Source of the DNA: a virus
Strand: one strand, 5' to 3'
DNA: 23,635 nucleotides
IMG/VR virus record: IMGVR_UViG_3300020408_000039
Coordinates: 1-23,635 of that record
Position numbers and translations under genes: made by a program. Positions 1-11,760 of this stretch are shown here, one piece after another; the stretch's first letter is position 1, and each line of letters starts with the position of its first letter. Below the pieces are notes generated by a model. It ran no database searches and was not told the DNA's origin. It saw only the letters and a program-made list of their open reading frames with translations.

Positions 1-96
1 ACTTACTGGCAACCGCTAGTTAAGGTGATGAGTCAGAGGTGGTGCTCGCTGTCAGAAATGGCAGAACTACTCAACCAAGTAGGACTCAGGCAATGA
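1..96 (+). CDS. C-terminal end of an upstream gene (partial), unknown function
   Basis: Frame 1 is open from the first base to a TGA at 94-96 and gives a 31-residue C-terminal fragment that ends in an amphipathic, helix-like stretch (SEMAELLNQVGL). The stop overlaps an ATG (ATGA at 93-96) that opens the next mini-ORF, the coupling style used throughout this genome. I do not recognise the protein, and the fragment is too short for a family call. It is called coding because of the open frame, its plausible composition and the ATGA junction. Confidence 0.45.
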   Translation, partial: TYWQPLVKVMSQRWCSLSEMAELLNQVGLRQ

Positions 97-167
97 CGTA
101 TTTTACTTCTGTAGTAATGCCCGTTATTTGTTGGTACACAGGAATCCAACCTCCCTTTCAATCTTAA
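93..167 (+). CDS. 24-aa hydrophobic mini-ORF, unknown
   Basis: The ATG at 93 overlaps the TGA of the preceding frame as ATGA, and the ORF runs to a TAA at 165-167. The peptide is hydrophobic and aromatic (MTYFTSVVMPVICWYTG at the start). Its stop codon touches the A-tract of the intrinsic terminator that follows, so it would be the last cistron of the upstream transcription unit. No function can be given. At this size it could be a chance ORF; the coupled start and the exact fit before the terminator are the only support. Confidence 0.3.
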   Translation: MTYFTSVVMPVICWYTGIQPPFQS

Positions 168-9510: not shown

Positions 9511-10180
9511 AACTGTATTTAAAACTGTAGGTCCTCCAAAACCTATTAATGAAATAAATTCTGTGACAAAGAAGTCTGGTTTAAGACTCTATGAAGTTGC
9601 AGAGAACAAATGGTATCCTTCTATCACGACTATTACAAGTCATCGTAAGAAGGATTCTATTATTAAATGGAGAAAACGTGTCGGTGAAAAGCAAGCAACA
9701 AAAATTTCAACTGCTGCTGCATCACGTGGCAATAAGTTTCATAGTATGGTAGAATGTTATTTGAAGAACGAACCAGTTGCATTCGATGAAACTAATCCTC
9801 TTGCTACTTATCTTTTTCAGTCCTCCCGTGAGGAACTTAATAGGATCAATAACATACACCTTCTGGAGAGTTGTCTCTTCAGTGATTATCTACGCATTTC
9901 TGGTCGCGTTGACTGCATAGCAGAGTTTGACGGTGAACTATCTGTCATTGACTTTAAAACGTCAACGAAACCTAAGAAAGAAATGTGGATTGAAAATTAC
10001 TTCGTTCAAGAAACTGCTTACGCAGTTATGTACTATGAAAGATGTGGTGTTCCTATCAACAAGATCGTTACTATTGTTGCAGTAGAAGATGGTACTGTTC
10101 AAGTCTTTGAAAAGAATCCTGATCACTACTATGACCTTCTTAGATCTTATATCGATGACTTTATGTCTACAATCAAATGA
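9500..10180 (+). CDS. PD-(D/E)XK exonuclease (RecB/MGME1-like)
   Basis: The 226-aa product shows the nuclease core in order: RGNKFHSMVE (helix motif with His, about 77-86), GRVD (135-138), VIDFKTSTK (149-157, with Asp151 and Lys153 as the D-x-K pair) and QETAY (170-174). This pattern is typical of RecB-family and MGME1-like single-strand exonucleases that act in DNA processing or recombination. The start is TTG 9500, supported by AAGGTGA (9490-9496) just upstream and by the lack of any early ATG. It overlaps phoH by 11 nt and joins gp33 by ATGA. Confidence 0.88.
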   Translation: MVSKTVFKTVGPPKPINEINSVTKKSGLRLYEVAENKWYPSITTITSHRKKDSIIKWRKRVGEKQATKISTAAASRGNKFHSMVECYLKNEPVAFDETNPLATYLFQSSREELNRINNIHLLESCLFSDYLRISGRVDCIAEFDGELSVIDFKTSTKPKKEMWIENYFVQETAYAVMYYERCGVPINKIVTIVAVEDGTVQVFEKNPDHYYDLLRSYIDDFMSTIK

Positions 10181-10422
10181 AAGAATTTAAAGACAAATTT
10201 ATGACACAAGCGAAATTCTCAGGAATGGTAGAGGAAGTTGTCAAGAATAGCAATGGACTTACCAACTACATTGATGCAGTTGTAGTTGTCTGCGATGAAT
10301 ACGACATCGAGATTGAAACTGTAAACAAATTAATTTCTCGTCCACTTAAAGACAAAATTAAATACAATGCACAACAATTAAATTACGTTAAAAAAACTAG
10401 CAGAGGAGTATTACCATTATGA
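10177..10422 (+). CDS. 33: Late-transcription co-activator gp33
   Basis: The 81-aa product is small and mixed-charge, with the pattern TNYIDAVVVVCDEYDIEIET, VNKLISRPLKDKIKYNAQQLN and YVKKT near the end, matching cyanomyophage gp33. In T4, gp33 binds the RNA polymerase beta flap and links it to the sliding clamp gp45, so that polymerase carrying the late sigma gp55 starts at late promoters. Its presence fits the T4-like late promoter sequences in this window. It lies upstream of gp32, as in T4, and is coupled at both ends by ATGA. Confidence 0.85.
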   Translation: MKEFKDKFMTQAKFSGMVEEVVKNSNGLTNYIDAVVVVCDEYDIEIETVNKLISRPLKDKIKYNAQQLNYVKKTSRGVLPL

Positions 10423-10760
10423 CACAACCATTTTACGAGTCGGATGTAATCAAAGAAGAGTTGGAAAATATGCAACAACTCTATAAAGATTTGTATGATC
10501 TTTCTGTTAGATTTCCTTTGATGAAACCAGAGGAAAAGAAAGAACACATTGTAAAAACATTAGAACTTATTGCTAAACAAAAGATCTTCTACGGTAGGTT
10601 ACAGTTGATGGCATTAGAAGATCAAGAGGCAGCAGAAGTCAAGATTCGTATAGATCAAATGACTGAAATCTATAGTGGTGGTAAGCAAATTCAAGAAGTC
10701 TTAGAAGATATGGAGAAACGCTTACACTCTTGGAGAAGGGAACTTGACGCACATAAATAA
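10419..10760 (+). CDS. DUF1825 family protein, 113 aa
   Basis: This helical protein begins FYESDVIKEELENMQQLYKD and continues with a long charged helix region (KPEEKKEHIVKTLELIAKQK), matching the cyanobacterial DUF1825 family in pattern and length. That family is almost limited to cyanobacteria and their phages, so the gene was probably gained from a host; its function is unknown. It sits between gp33 and gp32, the slot T4 uses for the helicase loader gp59. It is much shorter than gp59 (217 aa), and I see no sequence reason to call it a loader. Confidence 0.8.
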   Translation: MTQPFYESDVIKEELENMQQLYKDLYDLSVRFPLMKPEEKKEHIVKTLELIAKQKIFYGRLQLMALEDQEAAEVKIRIDQMTEIYSGGKQIQEVLEDMEKRLHSWRRELDAHK

Positions 10761-10762
10761 TT
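10753..10762 (+). promoter_or_regulatory. Candidate late promoter for gene 32 (ATAAATAATT)
   Basis: ATAAATAATT, preceded by C, covers the stop of the DUF1825 gene. It contains the T4 late core ATAAATA and the shared 10-mer (A/C)TAAATAA(C/T)T. A start 5-8 nt downstream would place the RNA 5' end at the base of the gene 32 leader pseudoknot. Confidence 0.55.
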
Positions 10763-10765
10763 ATG

Positions 10766-10792
10766 TTACCCTTATGGGGTAGTAAAAACATA
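10766..10792 (+). promoter_or_regulatory. Candidate H-type pseudoknot in the gene 32 mRNA leader
   Basis: Stem 1: TACCC (10767-10771) pairs with GGGTA (10777-10781), and T10766-G10782 adds a wobble pair. Stem 2: TATG (10773-10776), in the loop of stem 1, pairs with CATA (10789-10792). Loop 1 is one nucleotide (T10772). The second loop is 6-7 nt and A-rich (10783-10788). These are the proportions of the T2/T4 gene 32 pseudoknot. The 26 bases from 10793 to the ATG contain one G, fitting an unstructured gp32 loading tract. Stem 2 is short (4 bp), so folding needs proof. Confidence 0.6.
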
Positions 10793-10818
10793 CAACACAC
10801 AAAAACAACAGACTAATT

Positions 10819-11760
10819 ATGTCATTCGCAAGTTTAAAAAAATCATCTGGTAACTTTGCATCTCTTACAAAAGAGATCAACAAAATGAACAGTAAAGGAA
10901 ACAAATCTGACGAACGTTTCTGGAAACCAGGTGTTGACAAGTCAGGAAATGGTTTTGCTATCATTCGTTTTGTACCACCACAAGGAGAGAGTGAACTCCC
11001 TTGGGCACAGGTTTGGAGTCACGCATTCCAAGGACCTGGTGGTTGGTTTATTGAAAATTCTTTGACTACTTTAGGTAAGAAGTGCCCTATTAGTGCACAC
11101 AATTCTATGCTTTGGAATAGTGGAAAAGAATCAGACAAAGAGATAGCACGTAAGCAAAAGAGAAAACTTTCTTACTATACAAACATCTACGTTATCAAAG
11201 ACCCTCTGAATCCAGAGAATGAAGGTCAAGTATTCTTATACAAATTTGGTAAACGTATCTTTGATAAACTTACTGCACGTATGCAACCAGATGAGAATGA
11301 TTACGATCCACAACCCGCAATCAATCCATTTGACCTTTGGAAAGGTGCAGACTTTAAATTAAAGATCAAACAGGTTGCAGGTTACTGGAACTATGATGAC
11401 TCATCATTCAATTCACCTAGCACATTAGGTAACTTTGATGACTCTAAGTTAGAGGAGATTTATAACAGTAGTTACTCTCTAAAGGAGTTTACTGATGAAT
11501 CTAATTTCAAAACTTATGAGGAGTTGGAGGAACGTCTTAAGACAGTTCTTGGACAGTCAGTTCAACCAACCTCATTCGACACAGACAAATACGATCACGC
11601 ACCAAGTATCACAGAAACCCCTGTTCCAAACACAAATTGGAAGGAAGAGGTTGAGTCGTTCTCAGCAACAAAAACTGCTGCGTCTGCAACAACTCCTGCT
11701 GCTAAAGAGGAGGAGGACGATGCGTTAAGTTTCTTCCAGAAACTCGCAGAGGAAGATTAA
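10819..11760 (+). CDS. 32: Single-stranded DNA-binding protein gp32
   Basis: This 313-aa protein (T4: 301) shows the gp32 plan. It has a basic N-terminal domain for cooperativity (MSFASLKKSSGNFASLTKEI), an OB-fold core (FWKPGVDKSGNGFAIIRFVP, then AQVWSHAF) and an acidic C-terminal tail (AAKEEEDDALSFFQKLAEED) for partner proteins. It coats ssDNA during replication and recombination. The T4 zinc site (His64, Cys77, Cys87, Cys90) is not complete: only His68 and Cys89 have plausible counterparts and there is no other Cys, so it probably binds no zinc. The start has no strong Shine-Dalgarno but follows a pseudoknot and an open leader, as expected for autogenous control. Confidence 0.95.
   Translation: MSFASLKKSSGNFASLTKEINKMNSKGNKSDERFWKPGVDKSGNGFAIIRFVPPQGESELPWAQVWSHAFQGPGGWFIENSLTTLGKKCPISAHNSMLWNSGKESDKEIARKQKRKLSYYTNIYVIKDPLNPENEGQVFLYKFGKRIFDKLTARMQPDENDYDPQPAINPFDLWKGADFKLKIKQVAGYWNYDDSSFNSPSTLGNFDDSKLEEIYNSSYSLKEFTDESNFKTYEELEERLKTVLGQSVQPTSFDTDKYDHAPSITETPVPNTNWKEEVESFSATKTAASATTPAAKEEEDDALSFFQKLAEED

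Follow-up and report, generated by a model that had tools for sequence, protein, structure and literature searches.

A covarying leader hairpin interlocked with a putative double promoter upstream of gene 32 in T4-type marine cyanophages

In T4, gp32 binds a pseudoknot located 67 nt upstream and spreads along an unstructured, A+U-rich tract, and a review of T4 called for study of gp32 autocontrol across the diverse relatives of T4 (PMC3014915). The RB69 gene 32 leader keeps the mechanism despite sequence divergence (PMC535899), and the conserved pseudoknot is absent from RB49 (PMC3014915). What stands in its place in a T4-type marine cyanophage is the question raised by the window, as the whole stretch of DNA analysed here is called, which is an entire viral contig of 23,635 bases (IMGVR_UViG_3300020408_000039). 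The named relatives of its gene 32 product came mostly from Kyanoviridae cyanophages. Upstream of gene 32 lie a gp33-like late-transcription gene, at 10177, and then a phrog_468 gene that shares its 3' end and stop codon with the promoter motifs listed below. The gp59 helicase-loader gene was absent between the gp33 and DUF1825-type genes (window 10177–10819); at that place it is present in Syn33 and S-RIM2 and absent in P-TIM40. A manA RNA (RF01745, 142 bits, + strand), a known cyanophage-associated RNA family, occupies window positions 1–160, with its 5' end lost at the contig edge. The leader and its flanking genes comprise the following features:

10419–10760, + strand: upstream gene of the DUF1825 type, 113 codons, phrog_468 match (the DUF1825 name comes from syntenic GenBank genes)
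10744–10749, + strand: TTGACG, −35-like element of a predicted sigma70 promoter
10752–10759, + strand: CATAAATA, late-promoter-like element within the spacer
10766–10782, + strand: RNA hairpin (energy versus shuffles, p = 0.010; covariation among relatives)
10766–10771, + strand: hairpin 5' arm TTACCC, with the core TACCC at 10767–10771
10767–10772, + strand: TACCCT, −10-like element 17 nt past TTGACG, overlapping the hairpin 5' arm
10772–10776, + strand: hairpin loop TTATG
10777–10782, + strand: hairpin 3' arm GGGTAG, with the core GGGTA at 10777–10781
10773–10792, + strand: proposed stem 2, TATG (10773–10776) with CATA (10789–10792), an unconserved chance match (p = 0.53)
10784–10818, + strand: A/C-rich, nearly G-free tract from the hairpin to the start codon, 1 G in 35 nt
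10819–11760, + strand: gene 32, single-strand DNA-binding protein gp32 (phrog_224, E 8.6e-118)

The sequence-only reading had placed in this leader a conserved RNA structure, namely a pseudoknot built of stem 1 (TACCC/GGGTA) and stem 2. The letters of stem 1 were confirmed and form a hairpin conserved across relatives, so the conserved structure stands, as a hairpin. The pattern TTACCC(N3-8)GGGTA occurred once in the window against 0.01 expected, and the stem may be extended by a G.U pair (10765/10783) and a U-A pair (10764/10784). An intrinsic terminator was ruled out, as the T run is missing 3' of the hairpin. No Rfam covariance model matched the window leader at the gathering score, and the T4 leader likewise fell below it. 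A general repeat or promoter element was rejected because GTTACCC(N3-7)GGGTAGTA also turns up outside gene 32 leaders, in unrelated settings that lack the TTGAC/TAAATA flank; among the matches listed for this pattern in IMG/VR, 50 of 120 were gene 32 leaders.

Gene 32 leaders were taken from IMG/VR and GenBank relatives and 123 distinct ones were kept; most of their loci are metagenomic, and they are related among themselves. The late-promoter motif and the hairpin occurred together in 86 distinct leaders. Among the hairpin leaders 28 different stem sequences were found, for example TGCTAC/GTAGCA, TGTTAC/GTAACA, TTGGTAC/GTACCAA, TGCCATC/GGTGGCA, and TGCTATG/CATAGCA. One stem pair was C-G, G-C, U-A, or U.G in the 86 leaders and never unpaired, and the pair at position −1 required at least 15 changes on the gp32 tree. 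Covariation was scored on 27 leaders, all with 9-nt loops and aligned without gaps; columns 9 and 25 held C-G in 17, G-C in 7, and U-A in 3 of them, with no failures. The score was 0.275 against a shuffled mean of 0.104, slid versions reached at most 0.070, and RNAalifold recovered the identical four core pairs. Stem 1 withstood the refuting observation named beforehand, homologous leaders without both stems, to which stem 2 succumbed. The core arms are invariant within the TACCC clade to which the window belongs, so the support there derives from the wider family.

The hairpin folded better than shuffles (p ≤ 0.05) in 86 of the 91 leaders with the late-promoter motif and in 1 of the 27 leaders without it. 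This link is weak because the tree shows only about three joint changes of the two features, and few pairs were found in an independent-pairs test of motif against hairpin. In these sequence comparisons, covariation is the stronger evidence for the hairpin than its association with the late motif. Loops were mostly 3–9 nt long and conserved across relatives neither in sequence nor in length, so specific recognition is not evident. In the leaders L255, L257, L243, and L247 a larger hairpin was seen by eye further downstream (e.g., GTTGGG/CCCAAC), possibly a replacement form.

The hairpin is interlocked with promoter-like elements. The TTGACG/17 nt/TACCCT geometry, in which the −10 element doubles as the 5' arm of stem 1, had gone unnoticed in the first reading. 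TTGAC was present at this place in 109 of the 123 distinct leaders, and TAnnnT followed at the 17-nt spacing in 94 of these 109; no other spacing tested gave more than 4. The late-promoter motif, which had been claimed to start RNA at the leader structure, was confirmed: T4 late promoters carry TATAAATA at −13 to −6 (PMC1524935), and with the same geometry the late +1 is predicted at about 10765. The first nucleotide of the hairpin falls at −3 to +1 relative to the predicted late start. Start sites were predicted by T4 and E. coli rules; the one set by the −10 element would fall near 10779, within the 3' arm, and would leave the early RNA without the 5' arm. One gene is thus preceded by sigma70-like −35 and −10 elements, a 17-nt spacer, and a late motif. 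In the clade L040–L080 nearly all leaders had TTGACA, 17 nt, and TATAAT at the same place, and both the hairpin and TAAATA were absent.

Overlapping early and late promoters have already been proposed for T4-middle homologues in RB49 and S-PM2 (PMC2984593), where, as here, sigma70-like and late motifs lie upstream of a T4-middle-gene homologue. The double promoter is therefore a known idea and the hairpin is the addition: in the present leaders the promoters are interlocked at a fixed spacing and the early −10 lies within a covarying RNA stem.

A search of the whole Syn33 genome for TTGAC, TAAATA, and TAnnnT in combination found them once, at gene 32, and 4 of the 34 other late-like sites there had a hairpin of −4 kcal/mol or below. 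In kyanovirus contigs the hairpin was present at 29 of 29 gene 32 sites, a figure biased upward by the many sites fetched with the hairpin pattern; of the other late-like sites, 4 of 42 had one. This bias does not affect the Syn33 and protein-fetched sets. At Syn33 position 113291 (near 13291 in L303) a late-like TATAAATA is followed by a GTTACC/GGTAAC hairpin, which sits just 5' of where an annotated HNH endonuclease gene starts.

Downstream of the hairpin, the nearly G-free tract up to the AUG described from the window's letters proved to be a family trait. In the 86 leaders G made up on average 1% of the tract up to −14, with zero G in 69 of 86, and a stable fold was absent from the tract. 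In the window clade a clear Shine–Dalgarno sequence is absent before gene 32 (window 10800–10818, CAACAGACTAATT); most relatives have GGAG or GAGG at that place. The zinc site, said to be lost from the protein, was found to be lost in part: cyanophage gp32s lack most of the Cys ligands, with Ser facing the T4 Cys of IETC and the second Cys of CPVC in the alignment, and they retain the His.

Judged from its sequence context, the hairpin probably serves to regulate the late gene 32 message or to shield it. The likeliest function, to which we would give a little less than an even chance, is that of a double promoter whose late RNA carries a 5' hairpin as a simplified T4-type gp32 operator. From a host-sigma70 promoter (TTGAC, 17 nt, TAnnnT) the early mRNA would begin within the 3' arm or close to it and could not form the hairpin, and a gp55-type late promoter in the spacer would start the late RNA at the hairpin foot. 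The late mRNA would then consist of a 5'-terminal hairpin and a nearly G-free single-stranded tract running through the ribosome-binding region. When in excess of the available single-stranded DNA, gp32 would nucleate beside the hairpin and spread along the tract, blocking translation of the late gene 32 mRNA, and the hairpin might perhaps also protect the 5' end. Autoregulation by gp32 through this leader is plausible.

The main alternative, possible but in our judgement somewhat doubtful, is that the hairpin acts as a cap shielding late gene 32 mRNA from 5'-end-dependent decay, and that gp32 binding plays no part. A structure kept at the predicted 5' end without conservation of its sequence is what a stabilizer would look like, and in T4 the gene 32 mRNA is the most stable of all T4 mRNAs and has an RNase E-made end at −71, just 5' of the pseudoknot (PMC3014915). 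The absence of a hairpin from 38 of the 42 other late-like sites is unexpected for a general stabilizer; the few such sites that do have one count against the operator reading. Autoregulation was placed modestly ahead of pure stabilization because the hairpin is largely gene 32-specific and a nearly G-free tract follows it. The L040–L080 clade, which keeps the G-poor tract and lacks the hairpin, weakens this argument.

The inverted repeat might instead act as DNA, an operator over the −10 element that binds a regulator shutting the early promoter off. The repeat overlies the −10 in most hairpin leaders, and T4 offers precedents for autorepressor operators lying over late promoters (I-TevI, PMC2988022), but the arm sequences and loop lengths are highly variable. 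Moreover, among non-Watson–Crick stem pairs the G.U type outnumbered the A.C type 61 to 11, in counts that ignore relatedness and were made with a register rule giving G.T and A.C equal treatment. Such a strand bias favors RNA, since a DNA dyad should show none, and we consider the DNA operator quite unlikely.

In the window and its closest relatives (the L003 and L009 groups) the letters permit a T4-like H-type pseudoknot made of TACCC/GGGTA and TATG/CATA, placed in the leader much as in T4, but this reading is highly improbable, because the pairing of stem 2 is unconserved and at chance level. A pairing of at least 4 bp between the window loop and the downstream tract was reached by 53% of shuffles. 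TATG/CATA at this place was confined to the window and those nearest relatives; the pairing fails in L002, a relative with 97% gp32 identity, L005 has a different loop, and most relatives lack it. Pairing from loop to downstream sequence reached p ≤ 0.05 in 1 of 87 hairpins. When the window contig was cut into 120-nt tiles, H-type candidates (thresholds of at least 9 bp and at least 4 GC pairs) appeared in 57 of 472 tiles (12%), and the same search recovered the T4 and Cronus pseudoknots. In an H-type pseudoknot, moreover, a 1-nt loop would have little steric room to cross a 4-bp stem 2. A T4-type stem 1, with an upstream strand pairing with the loop, was sought by eye in the cyanophages and was not evident.

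Set beside the T4, T2, and RB69 gene 32 operators, the simplified-operator reading involves the same gene and the same order of an upstream RNA structure and an unstructured G-poor tract leading to the AUG. The covarying cyanophage hairpin lies 24–42 nt 5' of the AUG, the corresponding distance in T4 being about 39 nt by our count. The two conserved stems of an H-type pseudoknot were not found: the cyanophages have a single hairpin in contrast to two stacked stems, and their tract is A/C-rich rather than A+U-rich. Their 5' arm is also a −10 element, and their gp32 is without most zinc ligands. The leader layout, as read from sequence, is thus like that of the T4 gene 32 operator, a hairpin taking the pseudoknot's place. 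In Erwinia phage Cronus (L306) the leader before 323 has a T4-like pseudoknot (TACC/GGTA and GATGCAA/TTGCATC) directly 3' of a TATAAATA late motif. After the pseudoknot, CACCAACTGTTAA is common to T4, Cronus, and Acinetobacter phage Maestro. No obvious counterpart was seen in a small sample of other leaders, namely those of RB49, Aeromonas Riv-10, Klebsiella 05F, Vibrio phages, Pseudomonas Milchi, and Stenotrophomonas YB07.

Two further T4 systems offer partial parallels. For the I-TevI-type homing endonucleases (PMC2988022), as proposed here, the choice of promoter decides whether the mRNA contains a regulatory structure. The logic is reversed, since there the early/middle RNA has an inhibitory hairpin over the RBS from which the late RNA escapes, whereas here the late RNA would bear the hairpin and the RBS would be left uncovered. 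The T4/RB69 gene 43 operator (PMC3014915) likewise places a replication protein under autogenous control through a pseudoknot-free leader hairpin, but it belongs to a different gene and has a conserved loop sequence, which the present hairpins lack. No description of the cyanophage hairpin was found in the literature covered; subscription papers lay mostly outside the search, and an earlier mention is possible.

A broader and rather unlikely extension is that translational control depends on which promoter is used, and that the pseudoknot of T4 and the hairpin of the cyanophages are variants of one operator layout in T4-like phages. If this were true, early gene 32 mRNA would escape gp32 autorepression and late mRNA would be subject to it, with the early −10 element serving a second time, as the 5' arm of a hairpin found only at the 5' end of the RNA from the late promoter. 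One short sequence may serve two promoters plus an RNA structure, and the conserved hairpin offers a concrete, testable site in abundant marine phages.
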